Assembly: GCA_020073465.1 (NCBI GenBank)
Contig: JAIQFC010000004.1
Coordinates: 1-64,000, forward strand
Origin: Terriglobia bacterium
GTDB lineage: Bacteria; Acidobacteriota; Terriglobia; Terriglobales; Acidobacteriaceae
DNA length: 64,000 bases
Direction of reading: 5' to 3'
Below, piece by piece: positions 55,563-64,000 of the stretch. Under the pieces are notes generated by a model. The model was not told the origin of the DNA. It saw only the letters and a list, made by a program, of their open reading frames with translations, and did not search any database. A program made the position numbers and the translations under genes. Position 1 is the stretch's first letter; the number at the start of each line of letters is the position of its first letter.

Positions 55563-56324
55563 ATGTCTGCAAATCGGCAAAGACCCCGAATTGATTTTGA
55601 TGATCCGCTGAGGATGATTCCCCGGATCCTTACCAAGCTCTACAGCCTCTGGGTTCGTCTGACCTATCCGTTCGCTTCCCTGGGCAAGAGTGTTTCGATT
55701 CATTACACCTGTGACTTGCGAAATACGGGCCTAATTGAGCTTGGAAGCTTTGTCACCGTGCACAAGGACACTTGGCTCCAGGCATACGCTTCCGCTGCCA
55801 ATAAGGGCAAAGCGGTGCTGGTCATCGGCGATCACTGTTTCATTGCGCGCCGCTGCCATATCGCAGCTAAAAACGGCATTCACATTGAGCCAAACGTCTT
55901 GTTCGCTGCCTCGGTGCTGGTCCAGGATCACGGACACGCTTTTGGCGATGTCACGCTGCCGATTCGGGACCAAGGAGTTGCAGAGGGCGGCAGGATTCGA
56001 ATCGGACAGGGGAGCTGGATCGGACAAGGCGCCGCCATCATCTGCGACAGCGGAGAGCTGACGCTGGGCCGGAATTGTGTCGTGGCAGCCAACGCCGTGG
56101 TCACACGCAGTGCTCCGCCATACTCCGTGCTCTCTGGCAATCCCGCCCGGATCGTGAAGCAGTTTGATCCTGCAAAAGGGGTGTGGGTGCTGGGATCCAG
56201 CCGGCCGGTTGAAACCGAGGCCACACGAGCGCAGCACGCATCCTTGCAGTCCGGCACCAAGACGTCAGAGCCGCTGGGAGAATCGGGCGCCGAAGACAGA
56301 GCTCAAACTCTCAGCCGAAAGTAA
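55563..56324 (+). CDS. Left-handed beta-helix acetyltransferase (WcaF/NodL-like)
   Basis: A 253-residue hexapeptide-repeat acetyltransferase. The front (DDPLRMIPRILTKLYSLWVRLTYPF) is membrane-proximal. Repeats include LVIGDHCFIARRCHIAAKNGIHIEPNV and IRIGQGSWIGQGAAIICDSGELTLGRNCVVAANAVVTRS, ending VLSGNPARIVKQFDP. DHGHAFGD contains the catalytic His pattern of O-acetyltransferases. It probably O-acetylates the polymer precursor. The C-terminal ~45 residues are a low-complexity tail. Confidence 0.82.
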   Translation: MSANRQRPRIDFDDPLRMIPRILTKLYSLWVRLTYPFASLGKSVSIHYTCDLRNTGLIELGSFVTVHKDTWLQAYASAANKGKAVLVIGDHCFIARRCHIAAKNGIHIEPNVLFAASVLVQDHGHAFGDVTLPIRDQGVAEGGRIRIGQGSWIGQGAAIICDSGELTLGRNCVVAANAVVTRSAPPYSVLSGNPARIVKQFDPAKGVWVLGSSRPVETEATRAQHASLQSGTKTSEPLGESGAEDRAQTLSRK

Positions 56325-56327
56325 GCC

Positions 56328-56750
56328 ATGGTCGTCGACCATATTGGAATCGTCGTCCGGTCATTGGAACAAGGAATCCAGCAGTGGGAAGAACTGTTTG
56401 GATATACCCGGAACTCGGACATCGTCACCAACACCCGCCAAAAAGTAAGGGTCGCTTTTCTCGCCAAAAAGGACTCGGTGACCGTGAAATTGCTGGAAAG
56501 TTCCGACCCCAGCTCTCCGGTGTCTGTGTTTGCCCGAAAAGGTGGAGGACTTCACCACATTTGCTTTCGCTGCGAAAACCTGCAGGTTGAGATTCCTCTT
56601 CTGAAAGCGAAGGGCGCACGATTGCTTGTGCCGCCGCAACCGGGTGAAGCCTTTCGAAACAACGACATCGCGTTCTTTTTCGCCGACAATAATCTCAACT
56701 TCGAGCTGATCGACACGACAGAAAAAGAAGGATGGAGAGGGACCGTCTGA
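56328..56750 (+). CDS. VOC-family protein (glyoxalase/methylmalonyl-CoA epimerase-like)
   Basis: A 140-residue protein with two beta-alpha-beta-beta-beta motifs: VDHIGIVVRSLEQGIQQWEELFG, AFLAKKDSVTVKLLESS, GGLHHICFRCENLQVEIPLLK, FFFADNNLNFELIDT. The metal residues expected of the family are His (VDHIG), Glu (LLESS), His (LHHIC) and Glu (NFELI), all present, as in methylmalonyl-CoA epimerases. Only three bases separate it from the acetyltransferase, so they are co-transcribed. Its substrate here is unclear; an acyl-ACP or acyl-CoA used for decoration is possible. Confidence 0.8.
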   Translation: MVVDHIGIVVRSLEQGIQQWEELFGYTRNSDIVTNTRQKVRVAFLAKKDSVTVKLLESSDPSSPVSVFARKGGGLHHICFRCENLQVEIPLLKAKGARLLVPPQPGEAFRNNDIAFFFADNNLNFELIDTTEKEGWRGTV

Positions 56751-56789: not shown

Positions 56790-58802
56790 ATGTGCGGAAT
56801 CTCTGGAATCGTTGAACTCCGCGGCGCTCGCGTAGATCGCGAGCAACTCACGGACATGATTGCCACGTTGGGCCATCGCGGCCCTGACGCCCAGGAGATC
56901 TACACCGCCAATGGAACGGGGCTGGCACACGCCCGCCTGAGCATCATTGATCTTGAAGGCGGGCGGCAGCCCATGTCCAGCGCGGACGGTCAGCTCTGGA
57001 TCACTTTCAACGGGGAGATCTTCAACTACGTTGAGTTGCGGGAAGAGCTGATCCAGAAGGGCCACAAGTTCGCCACGCGCTCCGACACGGAAGTCATCCT
57101 GCATCTTTATCAGGAGGAGGGCGAGAACTGTGTCCAGCACCTCAATGGTCAGTGGGCATTCGCGATCTGGGACGCCGTGCGACAGAAACTCTTCATTTCG
57201 CGCGATCGGCTTGGCGTCAGGCCGCTGTTTTACACGCGAACTTCACACAGTTTCTTGTTTGCGTCTGAGATTAAGGCCCTGATTGCCTGCGGGGAGGTGA
57301 CGGCTGAATTGGACCTCCACGCGCTGGATCAGATTTTTACGTTCTGGGTAACGTTGCCGCCGAGAACAGCGTTCAAGAATATCCAGCAACTTCTCCCGGG
57401 ACATTCGCTGGTTCTCAAGAACGGAGAGGTTCGAACCTGGGAATACTGGCGTCCGGAGTATGCTCCTGAATGCGATCGTACTGAGGACGGAGAAGACAGG
57501 CTTACCGAAGAACTGCTGGCGCTGATGCGGGATGCCACTCGCATCCGGCTGCGATCCGACGTGCCGGTGGGGGCGTACCTGAGCGGAGGCCTAGACTCGA
57601 CCTTCATCACCGCTCTGACCAAGTCCCTGGTGGGTGACAAGCTCCGCACGTTTTCCGTTGGTTTTGATGATCCCGAGTTCGATGAGAGTGCATACCAGAG
57701 AGAAGCCAGCGCATTCCTCCACACCCAGCACAGCGACGTGCGCTGCACCCGCGCCGATATCGCCCACGTTTTTCCGGACGTGATATGGCACACCGAACAG
57801 CCAATCCTCCGGACTGCGCCAGCACCGCTCTATATGCTTGCCAAGTTGGTTCGAGAGAATGGTTTCAAGGTCGTTCTGACCGGCGAAGGCGCAGACGAGA
57901 CCATGGGTGGATACGACATATTCAAGGAAGCGAAGATCCGTCGCTTCTGGGGCCGAAAGCCTGAATCCCATGTTCGCCCGCTTTTGCTCAAGCGACTCTA
58001 CCCGTACATGGATGGAATCCAGCGCCAACCGGTCGCATATCTGAAGAAGTTCTTCCACGTTGCTCCGGAAGATCTCGCGAGTCCCTTCTTCTCCCATCTG
58101 CCACGCTGGGAGTTGACGGCCAGGTTGAAGATGTTTCTATCGGAAACAGTTCGCGCCGAAACGCAATCATCGAATGATCTGTCTGAACTGGAACGCTCTC
58201 TACCCAGTACTTACGGTTCGTGGTCTGGGTTCAACCAGGCGGAGTACCTGGAGACCATGTACCTGTTGCCCGGATACATCCTGTCATCCCAAGGCGATCG
58301 CATGGCCATGGCCCATTCGGTCGAGGGAAGGTACCCCTTCCTGGACCACCGCGTCGTGGAGTTCGCTGCGAAGCTGCCGCCGCGGTTGAAGATGAAGGTC
58401 CTTGATCAAAAGCACTTGTTGAAGCGGGCGGCCCACGGACTCATTCCCCGGTCTATTCAGTGGCGTTTCAAGCAACCTTACCGCGCGCCCGATGGAAAGA
58501 GTTTCTTTTCTGGTACACGAAATTGCGCGCAAGACATGTTGTCTGCCGAACATATCAAAAGGGACAGCATTTTCAACCCCGGGTCGGTCGCGGCGCTGGT
58601 GGCTAAGTTCGAGAGTGGCCGGGCCATTAGCGTCAAAGATGACATGGCTTTCGTGGGTATTCTCTCGACCCAGATCCTGCTTGAACAGTTCGTCCACCGA
58701 CGAGGAGCGAGAAGCACCACGTGGAAACAGGGCGCGGTCCCGGCACTGCCCGCGGGAGGAGATCCGTGGAAACCACAGCCGCACCCAGTCCGCACTCACT
58801 GA
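56790..58802 (+). CDS. asnB: Glutamine-hydrolysing asparagine synthetase-like amidotransferase
   Basis: A 670-residue AsnB-type enzyme. MCGISGIVELRG gives the glutaminase Cys2. GHRGPDAQEIY and FNGEIFNYVELREEL complete that domain. The synthetase domain has VGAYLSGGLDSTFI (PP-loop ~265-270) and LTGEGADETMGGYD, then SVEGRYPFLDHRVVEFA. Related amidotransferases in exosortase A and O-antigen loci are thought to amidate uronic acids rather than aspartate. The setting, among uronic acid genes and next to an ACP/ligase module, fits that. It is ~40 residues longer than usual, and the last 37 bases overlap the SGNH gene. Confidence 0.88.
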   Translation: MCGISGIVELRGARVDREQLTDMIATLGHRGPDAQEIYTANGTGLAHARLSIIDLEGGRQPMSSADGQLWITFNGEIFNYVELREELIQKGHKFATRSDTEVILHLYQEEGENCVQHLNGQWAFAIWDAVRQKLFISRDRLGVRPLFYTRTSHSFLFASEIKALIACGEVTAELDLHALDQIFTFWVTLPPRTAFKNIQQLLPGHSLVLKNGEVRTWEYWRPEYAPECDRTEDGEDRLTEELLALMRDATRIRLRSDVPVGAYLSGGLDSTFITALTKSLVGDKLRTFSVGFDDPEFDESAYQREASAFLHTQHSDVRCTRADIAHVFPDVIWHTEQPILRTAPAPLYMLAKLVRENGFKVVLTGEGADETMGGYDIFKEAKIRRFWGRKPESHVRPLLLKRLYPYMDGIQRQPVAYLKKFFHVAPEDLASPFFSHLPRWELTARLKMFLSETVRAETQSSNDLSELERSLPSTYGSWSGFNQAEYLETMYLLPGYILSSQGDRMAMAHSVEGRYPFLDHRVVEFAAKLPPRLKMKVLDQKHLLKRAAHGLIPRSIQWRFKQPYRAPDGKSFFSGTRNCAQDMLSAEHIKRDSIFNPGSVAALVAKFESGRAISVKDDMAFVGILSTQILLEQFVHRRGARSTTWKQGAVPALPAGGDPWKPQPHPVRTH

Positions 58803-59512
58803 CTGATCAGCAGATCTCTGGCCTAACGGCGAAGAAGATCTTCTTTGGGCATCAATCGGTCGGCAACAACATCATCCAGGGCATTAGGGACTTGGCGAGT
58901 GTGGATCCCCGGCTGAAACTGAACCTCGTAAAGTCATCAGATCCGCAGTCAATCTCCGGCCCGGCATTCGTTGAGTGTGAGATGGGGCAAAACGGGAACC
59001 CTCAATCGAAGATTGACGCCTTCTCTGCCCTGCTCGACAAGGGAATGGGAGCACAGGGCGGAATTGCAATGTTCAAGTTCTGCTATGTCGACATTGACTC
59101 TTCGACCGATATTCCCAAGATGTTTGCCAGCTATCGCGATGAGATTGGCTCTCTGAAGGCAGGATTTCCTGCCGTCAGGATTGTCCACGTAACGGTACCT
59201 TTGACAGCGGGGGAACCGGCGGCCAAAGTGTGGATCAAGAGTTTGCTTGGAAGAGAGACGTCGCAGGAGGCCAATTTGAAACGTAACCAGTTCAATGACC
59301 TCGTGAGAAAGACCTATGCGGAAACCGAGCGAATCTTCGATCTGGCAGAGATCGAGTCCACGCACGACGATCGCTCGCGGTCGTACTTCAGACGCGGCAA
59401 CCAATCGATCTACACGCTCGCACCAGAATACACGGACGATGGCGGCCATCTGAATGAAGTCGGACGGCGAACAGCTGCGGAGCGACTGCTGTTCATTCTT
59501 GCCCAGTCATAG
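58766..59512 (+). CDS. SGNH-like hydrolase
   Basis: A 248-residue protein. GTG 58766 is chosen for GGGAGGA five bases upstream; the gene overlaps asnB by 37 bp. KKIFFGHQSVGNNIIQGIRD begins the fold, with FGHQS in the position of the GDS serine block. MFKFCYVDIDSSTDI and VRIVHVTVPLT are further strands. The end DDGGHLNEVGRRTAAERLL carries the Asp-x2-His block V. Only the serine block is unusual (GHQS). It lacks a signal peptide. A cytoplasmic esterase or acyl transfer step on ACP or sugar intermediates is possible. Confidence 0.65.
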   Translation: METTAAPSPHSLTDQQISGLTAKKIFFGHQSVGNNIIQGIRDLASVDPRLKLNLVKSSDPQSISGPAFVECEMGQNGNPQSKIDAFSALLDKGMGAQGGIAMFKFCYVDIDSSTDIPKMFASYRDEIGSLKAGFPAVRIVHVTVPLTAGEPAAKVWIKSLLGRETSQEANLKRNQFNDLVRKTYAETERIFDLAEIESTHDDRSRSYFRRGNQSIYTLAPEYTDDGGHLNEVGRRTAAERLLFILAQS

Positions 59513-59589: not shown

Positions 59590-59898
59590 ATGTTCACAGA
59601 AAAGTCGGTTGGCCAGCATGTACGTGAGTTCATCGTGGAGAATTTTCTCTTCAACCAGGAGCGCACGTTCACCGACGACGATTCCTTCCTTGGCGAAGGC
59701 ATTGTCGACTCTACAGGCGTGCTGCAACTCGTGACGTTTCTGGAGGAAACTTACGGGATCACCGTTGAAGACGAGGATCTGACTCCAGAGAACATGGACT
59801 CGGTCAACAGTGTCGCGGCGTTTCTTTCTCGGAAAATGAATTCCGTTGCAGGATCTGTCCCGCTGGACCAGAAAACCGTGCCAGGAGGACAGTTATGA
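59590..59898 (+). CDS. Acyl carrier protein-like protein
   Basis: A 102-residue ACP. DDDSFLGEGIVDSTGVLQLVTFLEETYGITVEDEDL follows the carrier-protein fold, with Ser41 in the V-D-S-T-G motif as the phosphopantetheine attachment site. The tail after residue 85 is flexible. The following nadE-like gene starts inside its stop (ATGA), so they are translationally coupled. Together with the ligase at 60934 it should carry an activated acid for the decoration step. A dedicated ACP within a polysaccharide locus is unusual for housekeeping fatty acid synthesis. Confidence 0.85.
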   Translation: MFTEKSVGQHVREFIVENFLFNQERTFTDDDSFLGEGIVDSTGVLQLVTFLEETYGITVEDEDLTPENMDSVNSVAAFLSRKMNSVAGSVPLDQKTVPGGQL

Positions 59899-60887
59899 GC
59901 TCGATCTCGATGATTTCGCCCAATATTCTGCAGGTGGATGCTGGGCGCGAAACCGACCGGATTGTTGCCCGCATTCGGGAACTGGTCTTCAGCCAGCTCA
60001 AGCGCAAGGGCGCTGTGGTGGGTGTCTCTGGAGGCATCGACAGCAGCGTAGTCGCCCATCTGTGTGCCCGAGCTCTCGGTAAAGAGCGTGTAGTGGCGCT
60101 TTTCACCCCGGAAGCCGACTCGTCTCCCGATAGCCTTCGTCTTGGCCGCATGGTAGCCGATAATTTGGGAATACGGTCCTTCACCGAAGATATCAGCCCG
60201 ATCCTGAAGGGAGCCCGGTGTTATGAGCGGCGCGATGCTGCCATTCGGACAATGGTTCCGGAGTACGGGGAAGGCTACAAGTGCAAGATCGTCTTGCCGA
60301 ACCTTGTGGACGCGGACCGGTACGCGATTTTCTCGATTGTCGTGCAGTCTCCGAACGGAGAGACCATAAAGGTTCGCCTCAGCCTCGACGCCTATCTGGG
60401 CATCGTTGCAGCCACGAACTGCAAGCAGCGCGCCCGCAAGATCATTGAGTATTACTACTCCGATCTCTACCAGTACGCGGTAGCGGGCACACCGAATCGG
60501 CTGGAATACGATCAAGGGTTTTTCGTGAAGAACGGCGATGGCGCGGCGGATTTCAAACCCATCGCACACCTTTATAAGACCCAGGTGTACCAACTGGCGG
60601 CATATCTTGGGGTGCCCGAGGAAATCCAACGCCGGCCTTCGACGACCGACACTTATTCCCTCGAGCAATCGCAGGAGGAGTTCTATTTTGCAATTCCCCT
60701 TGCCAAGATGGACCTCTGTCTCTACGGCAAGAACAACAATATCACCGCTGCCGATCTCGCTCCCGCCGTCGGCATGGACGAAAAACAAGTGCAGCGGGTG
60801 TACGCGATGATTGAATCGAAGCGTCTGGTGGCACGTTATTTGCGCTCTGCGCCGCTGTTGATCGAAGAAGTACAGGGAATTCAATAA
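59895..60887 (+). CDS. NadE-like amidoligase (NAD+ synthetase family)
   Basis: A 330-residue N-type ATP pyrophosphatase. GAVVGVSGGIDSSVVAHL (PP-loop ~44-51) and ALFTPEADSSPDSL are typical. The second half has NRLEYDQGFFVKNGDGAADFKPIAHLYKTQVYQLA, as in NAD synthetases. But the region where NadE has a P-SADLxPxQTDE motif reads RRPSTTDTYSLEQSQEEFYFA, followed by AKMDLCLYGKNN. There is also an extra stretch near YKCKIVLPNLVDADRYAIF. Coupling to an ACP and an adenylating ligase points to amidation or amide-bond formation on an ACP-bound acid rather than NAD synthesis. NAD+ synthetase remains the alternative. Confidence 0.8.
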   Translation: MSSISMISPNILQVDAGRETDRIVARIRELVFSQLKRKGAVVGVSGGIDSSVVAHLCARALGKERVVALFTPEADSSPDSLRLGRMVADNLGIRSFTEDISPILKGARCYERRDAAIRTMVPEYGEGYKCKIVLPNLVDADRYAIFSIVVQSPNGETIKVRLSLDAYLGIVAATNCKQRARKIIEYYYSDLYQYAVAGTPNRLEYDQGFFVKNGDGAADFKPIAHLYKTQVYQLAAYLGVPEEIQRRPSTTDTYSLEQSQEEFYFAIPLAKMDLCLYGKNNNITAADLAPAVGMDEKQVQRVYAMIESKRLVARYLRSAPLLIEEVQGIQ

Positions 60888-60933
60888 CGCCACCGTTCTC
60901 TTTTCAGCTCAGAGCCAGTTTTTCGGAGCCTCT

Positions 60934-62475
60934 ATGAAAACGAACATGGCTCGCGATAATCTCAACGTCGCCGACTTTCTCCTTGAAGGCAAGCCACCCG
61001 ATCGCATTGCGCTGCGTCTCCCCGATGAGGAACGAACCTACGGAGAGTTGCAAGCGGCGGCGGCCGCATTTTCCCGCCACTTCGACGGACTTGGCTGCCG
61101 CAAAGGCGACCGGGTTGTCCTGGCAGGCGACAACTCATTCTTCTGGGTGGGCGCTTACCTGGGAATTTTGCGCGCCGGCTTAGTCTGCGTACCCCTGCCG
61201 ACGACTGTCACCCCAGAAGACCTTGAACATGTTTTGGCGGTGACAGAGGCACGAGTGGCTGTCCTGCAGGCAGGATTTGCTGCTAAACATGCATCACATT
61301 TCCGGGGCATGCATTTGATCATGGACCGTGAAAGTCAGGCCCTGCCTGATCTGCTGACCAAAGCAAGTTTCGATGAGGTCGCATCGCAGAGTCCAAAGGT
61401 ACCAACTCCGGCGTGCAAGATTGAACCGAGTGATCTGGCCGCTCTGATGTTCACGTCTGGCTCGACGGGAAAACCCCGCGGCGTGATGGTGTCGCACCGC
61501 AATATCATGGCTAATACCGAGTCCATCATCGAGTATCTTGGGCTAACGGAAGCCGATCGCATCATGACGGTCTTGCCCTTCCACTACTGCTTTGGCACAT
61601 CGCTTCTCCACACGCACCTTAGAGTGGGTGCCAGCCTAGTGGTGGACGCTCGATTCATGTATCCAGAACGAATTCTGCAACGCATGTTGGAGACTGACTG
61701 CACAGGCTTTGCTGGAGTCCCCAGCCACTTCCAGATACTGCTGCGAAACTCCAGCCTGCGAAAAAAGACGTTTCCTCGTCTGCGTTATGTGCAACAGGCG
61801 GGCGGCCATCTAGCGCCAGCGTTCATTCAAGAACTCAAAGAAGCTCTACCCGGAACCCAGATCTTCATCATGTATGGCCAGACGGAAGCGACCGCACGCC
61901 TTTCGTATTTGCCGCCCGACCTGCTCGACCAGAAGCTTGGCTCAGTTGGAAAAGGGATCCCCGGCGTTAAATTGTATGTGGTGGACGAGTCGGGCCATAA
62001 AGTCCGACCAGAAGAAGTCGGCGAAATTGTGGCTGAAGGCGACAATGTTGCGCTGGGCTACTGGCGGGAACCAGCAGAGACGGCAACCACGTTTTCTAAC
62101 GGCACACTTCACACCGGCGATTTAGCAACCGTAGACGAAGACGGTTTCATTTATATTGTTGATCGCGCCAAGGACTTCCTGAAGTGCGGGGGCAAGAGGA
62201 TCAGTTGCCGGCAAGTGGAGAGTCAACTACAAGAGTTCGAGTGTCTGCTCGAAACAGCCGTGGTCGCAATGCCGGACGAGGTTCTGGGAGAGGCTGTCAA
62301 GGCATTTCTGGTGGCACGCATGCCTGGTTGTCCGGCATTCGAGGCGTGCTTTCGCGTGTTCTGCAAGGAGCACATGCAACCTCAATTCGTGCCCAGAGAA
62401 TTTGTCGTGACAGATTGTCTTCCCAAGAACAGCGCAGGCAAGGTGCTCAAGCGCAACCTGAGGAGCGTACAGTGA
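60934..62475 (+). CDS. Adenylate-forming acyl ligase (acyl-CoA/ACP synthetase)
   Basis: A 513-residue class I adenylating enzyme. LMFTSGSTGKPRGVMVSHRN near residue 171 binds the ATP phosphates. MYGQTEATARLSYLPP (A5 region) and GELHTGDL-like THTGDLA (here TLHTGDLATVDEDGFIYIVDRAKDFLKCGG) follow. The C-terminal catalytic Lys is in LPKNSAGKVLKRNL. With the ACP at 59590 it should load a carboxylic acid onto the pantetheine arm. XrtA loci are known to carry comparable ligases (TIGR03098-like). ATG 60934 is used; ATG 60946 is possible. Confidence 0.88.
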   Translation: MKTNMARDNLNVADFLLEGKPPDRIALRLPDEERTYGELQAAAAAFSRHFDGLGCRKGDRVVLAGDNSFFWVGAYLGILRAGLVCVPLPTTVTPEDLEHVLAVTEARVAVLQAGFAAKHASHFRGMHLIMDRESQALPDLLTKASFDEVASQSPKVPTPACKIEPSDLAALMFTSGSTGKPRGVMVSHRNIMANTESIIEYLGLTEADRIMTVLPFHYCFGTSLLHTHLRVGASLVVDARFMYPERILQRMLETDCTGFAGVPSHFQILLRNSSLRKKTFPRLRYVQQAGGHLAPAFIQELKEALPGTQIFIMYGQTEATARLSYLPPDLLDQKLGSVGKGIPGVKLYVVDESGHKVRPEEVGEIVAEGDNVALGYWREPAETATTFSNGTLHTGDLATVDEDGFIYIVDRAKDFLKCGGKRISCRQVESQLQEFECLLETAVVAMPDEVLGEAVKAFLVARMPGCPAFEACFRVFCKEHMQPQFVPREFVVTDCLPKNSAGKVLKRNLRSVQ

Positions 62476-62536
62476 GTGTATTGGACCGTGGGCTGGCATC
62501 GTTTCGGTCGTGCCCCTCTTGAGGTCAAACAAATTC

Positions 62537-63595
62537 ATGCATCTGTTGCACGTCGTTGGCGCGCGTCCGAATTTTGTGAAGGCTGCACCCGTCTTGCGCG
62601 CCATCAAGAGACGGGGACTGCGGCAAACACTAGTTCATACCGGTCAACACTACGACCGGAACATGTCCGACGTCTTCTTCACGCAGCTCGAGATTCCCGA
62701 GCCCGACATCAATCTGGAAGTGGGATCTGGCAGTCACGCTTTCCAGACTTCCGAAATCATGCGCCGCTTTGAACCGGTGGTTCTGGAACACAAGCCGGAC
62801 CTCGTTCTTGTGTACGGTGATGTCAACTCCACGGTGGCTGCTGCTCTGGTTTGTGCCAAGCTGGTCGTTCCAGTGGGTCATGTCGAGGCTGGCCTCCGCT
62901 CGTTTGATCGGACGATGCCGGAGGAAGTCAACCGCATCGTCACCGACCGGCTCTCCGATGTGTTATTCACTCCATCTGAGGACGCCGACGCCAACCTCCA
63001 ACTTGAAGGCGTTCCAAGCGAGAAGATCCATCGCGTCGGCAACGTCATGATTGATTCGCTCATCCAGCTGTTGCCGGCTGCCAGGAGCTGTCACACGAAT
63101 GGTTTTCCCGAACGATTGGCTCTGGTGACACTGCACCGTCCTTCCAACGTGGATGACAGCGAGAACCTACGGAGGGTGCTTGATTCGCTGCGCGAAACAA
63201 GCGAGCGCATTGAAATTGTCTTCCCCGTGCACCCCCGGACTCGTCAGCGGATCAAAGAATTTGGACTCTCTGTTCCGAAGCTCCACTTGGTGGATCCCCT
63301 TCCCTACATTGAGTTCCTCGCATTGCAGCTCCGTGCGGCAGTGGTCATCACTGACTCCGGCGGTATTCAGGAAGAGACTACCTATCTGGGAGTGCCGTGC
63401 CTCACACTGCGTGAGAACACAGAACGCCCAATCACCGTAACCATGGGGACGAACATTCTGGTGGGCGAAGACAAGAATCGATTAACCCGGGAACTCCACA
63501 GCATTCTCGACGGGAACGGCAAGAAGGGCGTCATTCCTCCCCTGTGGGATGGACATGCCGGAGACCGTATCGCCGGGATTGTTCAGCGGTTCTAA
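62537..63595 (+). CDS. wecB: UDP-N-acetylglucosamine 2-epimerase (WecB/WbpI type)
   Basis: A 352-residue non-hydrolysing epimerase. ATG 62537 is preferred; GTG 62510 is in frame. HVVGARPNFVKAAPVL, VHTGQHYDRNMSDVFF, LVYGDVNSTVAAAL, GHVEAGLRSFDRTMPEEVNRI, TLHRPSNVDD and TDSGGIQEETTYLGVPCLTLRENTERPI are all present. It makes UDP-ManNAc, or in the WbpI form UDP-ManNAc3NAcA from UDP-GlcNAc3NAcA. With the trio at 17.4-20.2 kb the latter is a reasonable inference. Conserved catalytic residues are intact. The exosortase starts 24 bp later. Confidence 0.92.
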   Translation: MHLLHVVGARPNFVKAAPVLRAIKRRGLRQTLVHTGQHYDRNMSDVFFTQLEIPEPDINLEVGSGSHAFQTSEIMRRFEPVVLEHKPDLVLVYGDVNSTVAAALVCAKLVVPVGHVEAGLRSFDRTMPEEVNRIVTDRLSDVLFTPSEDADANLQLEGVPSEKIHRVGNVMIDSLIQLLPAARSCHTNGFPERLALVTLHRPSNVDDSENLRRVLDSLRETSERIEIVFPVHPRTRQRIKEFGLSVPKLHLVDPLPYIEFLALQLRAAVVITDSGGIQEETTYLGVPCLTLRENTERPITVTMGTNILVGEDKNRLTRELHSILDGNGKKGVIPPLWDGHAGDRIAGIVQRF

Positions 63596-63618
63596 AAGCC
63601 CCACCGACAGCCATACCA

Positions 63619-64000
63619 GTGACTTCAAATCCAAGTAAGGTCTCGGCCGGATTGAGCTTCGCCGTTCTCTGCGCGGTGTCTCTGTTGCTGTGGTTCGGCC
63701 CTCTGCTCAACACGCTCTCCCTTGCGCTTGGGGACGAGAAATACACCCATGTGCTCCTGATTCTTCCTCTGACAGCTGTGCTGATTTTCCTGCAGTGGAA
63801 CTGGCACACCGTGGAGTTCCGGCCCAGCATTTGGAGCGGCGGATTGCTGACGTTTGCACTCTTGCTCGCCGGACTAGCGAGATGGGAAAAGTTGGCCGAG
63901 GTGCCCGACATCCAGCTCTCGGTCAGCATGCTTGGTCTTGTCAGTTGGTGGGTCGGTTCTTTCGCCCTCTGTTTTGGTGTTCGGACATCCCGAACGCTAC
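63619..64000 (+). CDS. Exosortase (EpsH/XrtA-like), N-terminal part, cut by window edge
   Basis: The frame runs from GTG 63619 to the right edge, 127 residues seen. It has several membrane helices (LSFAVLCAVSLLLWFGPLL, LLTFALLLAGLARW, SMLGLVSWWVGSFALCFGV). Between helices is GDEKYTHVLLILPLTAVLIF, matching the exosortase 'D..YSHG..VP' signature, with Thr-His in place of Ser-His-Gly. The catalytic Cys and Arg/His residues lie beyond the window. Exosortases cut PEP-CTERM tags at the inner membrane. It starts 24 bp after wecB, so it is in the same operon. It pairs with the PEP-CTERM protein at 6350. Confidence 0.8.
   Translation, partial: MTSNPSKVSAGLSFAVLCAVSLLLWFGPLLNTLSLALGDEKYTHVLLILPLTAVLIFLQWNWHTVEFRPSIWSGGLLTFALLLAGLARWEKLAEVPDIQLSVSMLGLVSWWVGSFALCFGVRTSRTL

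Follow-up and report, generated by a model that had tools for sequence, protein, structure and literature searches.

What is an enzyme of the NAD synthetase family doing between an acyl carrier protein (ACP) and an acyl ligase? The question is raised by a locus in a 64,000-nucleotide stretch of DNA from Terriglobia bacterium (GCA_020073465.1, contig JAIQFC010000004.1, positions 1 to 64,000, forward strand), which we call the window. Three frames lie there on the + strand, exactly where a sequence-only reading had placed them: a 102-residue ACP at 59590-59898, a putative dedicated acyl carrier; a 330-residue NadE-like ATP pyrophosphatase (ATP-PPase) of the PRK00876 subfamily at 59895-60887, a proposed amide synthetase; and a 513-residue AMP-forming acyl ligase at 60934-62475, a proposed acyl-ACP synthetase. 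The ACP matches PF00550 at 22.6 bits (cut-off 20.8), and both residues of its phosphopantetheine site, D40-S41, including the serine that had been singled out, are 100% conserved among 74 aligned module ACPs. Its stop is joined by an ATGA overlap to the start of the NadE-like gene, whose product matches PF02540 at 160.6 bits, and after a further 46 bases comes the adenylating ligase, with matches to PF00501 (272 bits) and PF13193 (38 bits). Ahead of the trio stands an AsnB-type amidotransferase at 56790-58802 (+ strand; glutamine amidotransferase plus ATP-PPase; TIGR01536, 535 bits), again as had been read from the letters. The association of these genes exceeds chance, and the module is real and conserved.

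The ACP-NadE-ligase order was sought across genomes by scanning a collection with one genome per species, in which at least 566 stretches encode a relative of the NadE-like protein. The best 80 of these by NadE similarity were kept and, together with the window and a further locus from the window genome (L092), make up the 82 loci counted here; L093, a duplicate of L013, was left out, and related species among the 82 are not independent. A block was defined as genes on one strand with gaps under 1.5 kb, and partners on the opposite strand were not counted. By this rule AsnB, ACP, ligase and NadE share one block in 56 of the 82 loci, and in 47 of the 63 in which the NadE gene lies at least 4 kb from both ends. 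The commonest orders are AsnB-ACP-ligase-NadE (35 loci) and AsnB-ACP-NadE-ligase (nine loci, the window type), and the AsnB cluster is present in 72 loci. The record titles of the relatives name taxa, or genera belonging to them, among the Acidobacteria, Nitrospira, Alpha-, Beta-, Gamma- and Deltaproteobacteria, Planctomycetota, Verrucomicrobia, Armatimonadetes, Rokuibacteriota, KSB1, Bacteroidetes, Gemmatimonas and Mycolicibacterium.

As a less selected test, we took 20 hand-chosen PRK00876 regions (22 of 35 listed places, 19 genomes) and, as a control, 20 canonical nadE regions from 20 genomes, 17 of them shared with the test set, and searched both with the same profiles. Test regions were 8 to 17 kb long and control regions 4.5 to 17 kb, and genes were counted wherever they lay and whichever their strand. 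The contig of at least one test region (L182) is also that of locus L017, whose proteins are in the profiles. A ligase was found in 19 PRK00876 regions versus 0 canonical nadE regions, an ACP in 16 versus 0 (one of the 16 matches, in L197, being weak at 27 bits and overlapping the ligase frame) and AsnB in 11 versus 0; all three partners occurred together in 10 of 20 versus 0 of 20. Because PF00550 misses the module ACP on the Sinorhizobium meliloti plasmid pSymB, where it reports two other places, ACPs were counted with the profile of the module itself or with the window query. In this set the ACP-NadE-ligase trio is the tightest core, with AsnB a frequent fourth member.

The simplest account of the NadE-like protein would be housekeeping NAD synthesis, which the sequence-only reading had argued against. 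The window genome also encodes a canonical NadE (G000:C4:144664-145413, 250 bits); its other PRK00876 copy, on contig C17, is 57% identical to the window copy. Within the phylum, 30 of 247 genomes carry PRK00876 at E 1e-60; when 28 carriers (27 of those 30 plus G007) were searched with TIGR00552, every one held a separate canonical NadE. Since all 28 have the canonical enzyme as well, we conclude from genome content that the NadE-like protein is not the housekeeping enzyme.

The residues of the protein point the same way. It falls within PRK00876 (NF002048, 492.5 bits, cut-off 313, positions 5-327 of 330) and shows no difference in sequence from that recognised subfamily, whose database name is 'NAD(+) synthase'. 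Because Methanosarcina acetivorans, a control genome, matches NF002048, the subfamily reaches the archaea. An AlphaFold2 model built from an alignment of 52 sequences (predicted local distance difference test (pLDDT) 91.3, predicted template-modelling score 0.90) has the NadE fold: its best Foldseek match is 2e18_A (template-modelling (TM) score 0.84 on target), 2e18 being named NH(3)-dependent NAD(+) synthetase, and the 50 listed matches in the PDB are NAD synthetase-family by title, or 2e18. We then compared 52 family members with 31 canonical NadE proteins (30 from 28 acidobacterial genomes plus that of Escherichia coli). SGGxDS, N175, R179, R181, E204, G214-D215 and K228 are common to both groups, and the SGGxDS ATP-PPase signature is invariant in the NadE-like family. 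E. coli T170, A210 and L212, 100% conserved in the 31 canonical proteins, are replaced by V211, T251 and T253 in all 52 family members, which also carry an insertion within about residues 109-167. In the loop TDTYSLEQSQEEFYF, where the protein had been noticed to depart from NadE, T251, D252, T253, Q258, Q260, E262 and F263 are invariant (n=52 sequences), and the unusual loop is real and a family-wide trait. We take the changed positions to lie in the substrate/P2-loop region of NadE, where the family lacks residues that are invariant across the canonical proteins.

It could still be argued that the NadE-like protein is no more than an additional NAD synthetase, placed in the operon to supply NAD, as its NadE fold, its complete ATP-PPase motif and its database name would suggest. 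We consider this very improbable: the carriers searched already have a canonical NadE, three positions are invariantly changed and accompanied by an insertion, and the linkage to ACP and ligase is one that canonical nadE shows in none of its 20 regions. These same three lines of evidence, the separate enzyme, the changed residues and the linkage, rule out housekeeping NadE, and neither context nor loops support the name 'NAD(+) synthase' for PRK00876. A precedent for such a departure is the Francisella nicotinamide mononucleotide (NMN) synthetase (3fiu), a NadE paralogue with the same fold and among the best Foldseek matches of our model, which shows that NadE copies can switch substrate; unlike the window system, it presumably uses a nucleotide substrate and no carrier protein.

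The operon itself is not new and is already known in S. meliloti. In CP050561, a pSymB-type plasmid of this species, the annotated order is asnB, acyl carrier protein, acyl--CoA ligase, nadE. In strain 1021, pSymB carries the operon at 1450357-1455753, and the only PF00501 match of the plasmid, at 1452018-1453106, is inside it; for this reason its ligase and ACP must be, by elimination in a record that bears no labels, SMb20650 and SMb20651. The NadE-like protein encoded there scores 532 bits against PRK00876. The window belongs to the same operon type, with AsnB, ACP, AMP-forming ligase and PRK00876 in one block, but its order is AsnB-(SGNH)-ACP-NadE-ligase rather than AsnB-ACP-ligase-NadE, its ligase is of another subfamily (34% identity) and, unlike the S. 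meliloti operon, it is linked to polysaccharide and exosortase genes. Ramos-Vega et al. 2009 (Microbiology 155:257) reportedly name the whole asnB-SMb20651-SMb20650-nadE operon. According to the excerpted text of PMC7232532, SMb20650 is cotranscribed with the ACP SMb20651, its expression gives acylated SMb20651 in E. coli, and FadD is not replaceable by SMb20650. The proposal that the ligase loads an acid on the ACP has experimental support for these S. meliloti proteins (PMC7232532, in excerpt), which are homologues of the window pair. In the portions of text available from two other papers, the function of SMb20651 is said to need further investigation (PMC5686131), and smb20650 is listed among the genes down-regulated under Myxococcus xanthus attack (PMC10315480). 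Of the claim that the window holds a little-described system, then, the conserved module survives; its novelty is reduced by the S. meliloti operon and by the recognised subfamily to which the NadE-like protein belongs.

What the enzymes act on may be approached through what varies among the loci. Over the 2145 locus pairs with all four genes, median pairwise identity is 58.9% for NadE, 50.5% for AsnB, 43.9% for the ligase and 42.0% for the ACP, a comparison that favours NadE, by whose similarity the loci were picked. The window ligase is 55-80% identical to 10 other module ligases; between the window type and the S. meliloti type, ligase identity is about 34%, and a few ligases are of an intermediate kind. 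At L046:2307-8963, genes for a second ACP, FabA-like, SDR, Antibiotic_NAT and KASIII proteins lie between ACP and NadE, and no ligase was detected in that locus. We infer from these sequences that the acid is variable; because the NadE-like protein is conserved while the ligases differ, it probably acts on something constant in the pathway.

The AsnB of the module is likewise unlikely to perform its textbook reaction. C2, R49, N74, E76, D99, SGG[LI]DS, E366 and K561, which we take to be the glutaminase and ATP-PPase residue set, are each present in 69-74 of 75 aligned rows, the rest being mostly gaps. The TTIR of E. coli AsnB, presumably its aspartate-binding Thr/Arg segment, aligns to R-T-(two deleted)-A-P, with the two gaps in all 75 rows and R341 in 72 of 75. 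Because this segment is replaced, an asparagine-synthetase role is unlikely, and ordinary asparagine synthetase was rejected as an identity for the protein. Among solved structures its closest relative is 7ylz, which bears the name hydroxyamidotransferase (222 bits).

The explanation of the whole that we favour, although with somewhat less than even confidence, is a recurrent cassette for acid activation and amide formation whose product is delivered by a locus-specific transferase. The AMP-forming ligase would adenylate a carboxylic acid and charge the dedicated holo-ACP, the step that experiments on the S. meliloti homologues support. In loci that have it, the divergent AsnB would free ammonia from glutamine and amidate a carboxylate other than that of aspartate, plausibly on or for the ACP-bound group, in the manner proposed for glutarimide amidotransferase/ACP pairs. 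The NadE-derived ATP-PPase, whose pocket differs from that of NAD synthetase and whose substrate is probably what stays constant in the pathway, would adenylate a carboxylate and make an amide with ammonia or an amine. Finally, a locus-specific acyltransferase would hand the amide-bearing acyl group to an acceptor: this could be of the hexapeptide or SGNH type in the window, a tandem GNAT mainly in alphaproteobacteria and planctomycetes, and FemAB-like in other loci. The acceptor in the window would probably be a sugar of an exosortase-linked polysaccharide. In this scheme it is the amide step and its product that we infer. A broader proposition, which we hold more tentatively still, is that PRK00876 as a whole is a NadE-derived amide synthetase working on or for an ACP-carried group, with an exchangeable ligase (replaced in one locus by a small fatty-acid-synthase-like set) and an exchangeable acyltransferase; it would define a cross-phylum acyl-amide pathway and make many 'NAD(+) synthase' annotations wrong.

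The candidate transferases bear on where the product goes. Of the 82 loci, 25 encode a tandem-GNAT protein, and in 21 of these its gene has a core-type gene within 300 bp; FemAB-like genes occur in 13 loci and hexapeptide genes in 23, and at least one of the three types in 54. By hhalign the two tandem-GNAT groups are relatives (probability 96.9). A model of one of them, from Hyphomicrobium and of moderate quality (best pLDDT 79.1; five models, 60.7-79.1), matches Eis-like and N-myristoyltransferase structures at a Foldseek probability of 1.00, while sequence by itself matches N-myristoyltransferase weakly (E 0.034). Of the 20 acidobacterial test regions, one held a tandem GNAT, 4 and 2 matched the two FemAB profiles, and 9 and 10 the two hexapeptide profiles; in the 20 control regions, the tandem-GNAT, FemAB and hexapeptide profiles all gave 0. 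The hexapeptide-repeat acyltransferase-like gene of the window (55563-56324, + strand; PF00132, 32.9 bits; best NCBIfam model WbbJ-like, under its cut-off) is a candidate for the final transferase of this locus.

Such proteins also invite a different account, in which the product of the module is a diffusible or membrane N-acyl amide, a lipid-like small molecule, formed through acyl-ACP and tandem GNAT, and the polysaccharide setting of the window is incidental or secondary. The tandem GNAT beside the core in the 25 loci, with its Eis/N-myristoyltransferase-like fold, would suit this account, as would the acylation of SMb20651 upon SMb20650 expression (PMC7232532, in the excerpted text), the KASIII, FabA-like and SDR genes of L046, and the rhizobial operons seen, which sit among transport, regulatory and other genes. 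We nevertheless regard it as rather unlikely, given that the window and 10 others of the 82 loci have an exosortase close by, that sugar-nucleotide genes surround the window copy, and that no tandem GNAT was found in the window between 50001 and 64000.

It is also conceivable that the NadE-like protein amidates a carboxylate on a nucleotide sugar or sugar, giving a uronamide, with ACP and ligase devoted to acylating the same polymer in a reaction of their own. The residues shared with NadE, including N175 and R179, would suit a nucleotide-linked acid, and a UDP-glucose dehydrogenase family gene occurs by L092 and in three other loci. Two separate pathways would not need so tight a linkage of NadE, ligase and ACP, however; the UDP-glucose dehydrogenase cluster is confined to those four loci, and no sugar-nucleotide gene is named among the 17 features annotated around the Shinella operon or the 20 around that of S. 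meliloti, the plasmid annotation being incomplete. On balance we find this improbable.

Several observations weigh against the cassette that we favour. SMb20651 reportedly carried plain C12 or C18 fatty acids in the work of Ramos-Vega et al. 2009, and plain fatty acids have no second carboxylate to amidate. N175 and R179, which we assume may line the dinucleotide site, are kept in the NadE-like family, which makes a nucleotide-linked acid, or even nicotinic acid adenine dinucleotide, a possible substrate. From family chemistry and linkage, we read the NadE-like protein as most likely forming an amide within the carrier pathway. In five of the 82 loci NadE has no core gene in its block (two of them, L046 and L090, have partners farther off), and AsnB was not found in 9 of the 20 less selected regions, some of which are cut by contig ends, so that AsnB may be dispensable in places. 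The rhizobial copies seen (Shinella, Mesorhizobium, S. meliloti) are not in recognisable polysaccharide loci, although in the Mesorhizobium stretch a single glycosyltransferase gene lies some 3 kb downstream. Tandem GNAT is rare in the acidobacterial test regions (1 of 20). Polysaccharide loci often hold hexapeptide and FemAB genes in any case, and none of the controls is, as far as could be seen, such a locus; the contrast for these genes, such as 23 of 82 module loci versus 0 of 20 control regions for the hexapeptide type, may therefore reflect context only. The sequence-only reading had described a dedicated trio in a polysaccharide locus: the module does recur, but AsnB usually belongs to it, and because of the rhizobial operons the polysaccharide setting is not general.

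Among known systems, the loading modules of glutarimide polyketides resemble the favoured cassette in having an AsnB-like amidotransferase beside a discrete ACP, an adjacency that the two commonest module orders (35 and 9 of the 82 loci) share and that in the window is interrupted by the SGNH-like gene. In the excerpts of PMC4853412 and PMC8302727, an amide is proposed on the free carboxylate of the starter, a step that the latter says still needs in vitro validation; these systems use a malonyl-CoA transacylase and a polyketide synthase, whereas the window has an AMP-forming ligase and a NadE-like protein, and the same excerpts mention no NadE-like protein. The XrtA/PEP-CTERM cassette is related through its ligase and amidotransferase: of the curated models, TIGR03098 fits S. 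meliloti-type ligases best (457 and 505 bits, under the cut-off), and TIGR03108 is the second model for the window AsnB (449 bits). The window proteins were rejected as members of these two families (329.9 versus 592 bits for TIGR03098, 448.9 versus 817 bits for TIGR03108), and all 14 TIGR03098 loci fetched, from 20 genomes with a match, were without a NadE-like gene. Dlt D-alanylation was rejected as well, the DltC model NF003464 giving only 21.3 bits against a cut-off of 68.

If the favoured explanation is true, a widespread acyl-amide pathway of soil bacteria and nodule symbionts would be hidden behind a primary-metabolism label. Among the 40 plasmid matches listed, nine have a gene annotated beneath them, and all nine are named NAD(+) synthase. 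S. meliloti allows a direct test, its ACP and ligase having already been coexpressed in E. coli (PMC7232532, in excerpt).

The remaining genes of the locus describe its setting. All genes from the hexapeptide gene through the exosortase are on the + strand, and the hexapeptide gene and the one that follows it, both ahead of AsnB, had been passed over in the sequence-only reading. The second of these, at 56328-56750, encodes a VOC-fold, methylmalonyl-CoA-epimerase-like protein (PF13669, 74.8 bits) that may be an accessory in a subset: homologues lie in the same stretch as the module in five of the 82 loci, of different groups (the window, L012, L050, L077 and L085). Overlapping the end of AsnB and ending 77 bases before the ACP is a putative SGNH-like hydrolase or transferase (58748-59512, + strand), apparently an accessory too and present in 15 of the 82 loci. 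Its SGNH call drew no Pfam or NCBIfam match at E 0.01 and is backed by an alignment of 14 relatives, in which a likely catalytic pattern is largely kept, with GHQSVG nearly invariant, N82 and D231-x-x-H234; the L017 relative has Ala in place of the pattern Ser.

Downstream of the module and outside it, in a polysaccharide context, lie a WecB-type UDP-GlcNAc 2-epimerase gene (62531-63595, + strand; TIGR00236, 339.6 bits) and the start of an exosortase gene (63544-64000, + strand), which runs to about 64518 of the contig. The exosortase (L134:1145-2119) exceeds the cut-offs of two general models, TIGR02602 (115.7 bits, cut-off 105.55) and TIGR04178 (60.5, cut-off 23), and reaches that of no named subtype model, the nearest being XrtC (152.7 bits, cut-off 300). 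Farther upstream the locus encodes a glucose-1-phosphate cytidylyltransferase-like protein (TIGR02623, 217 bits, under the cut-off of 300), dTDP-4-dehydrorhamnose 3,5-epimerase family and epimerase/dehydratase family proteins, and an ATP-grasp protein. Because of these neighbours, we judge that the window locus is a polysaccharide locus.

The window genome has a second module at L092:8193-13153 (G000:C17), in the order AsnB-ACP-ligase-NadE and with an S. meliloti-type ligase; the UDP-glucose dehydrogenase family gene adjoins it. A PrmC/MTS-type methyltransferase gene lies near the module in nine of the 82 loci (L024, L036, L038, L061, L064, L074, L081, L084 and L090) and in Mesorhizobium (L098:10036-11873). 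PrmC methylates glutamine amides, and such a neighbour might fit an amide product. In L184 (G185:C118) and L193 (G239:C3), two PRK00876 genes lie close together, and one of the G185 copies carries internal stop codons.

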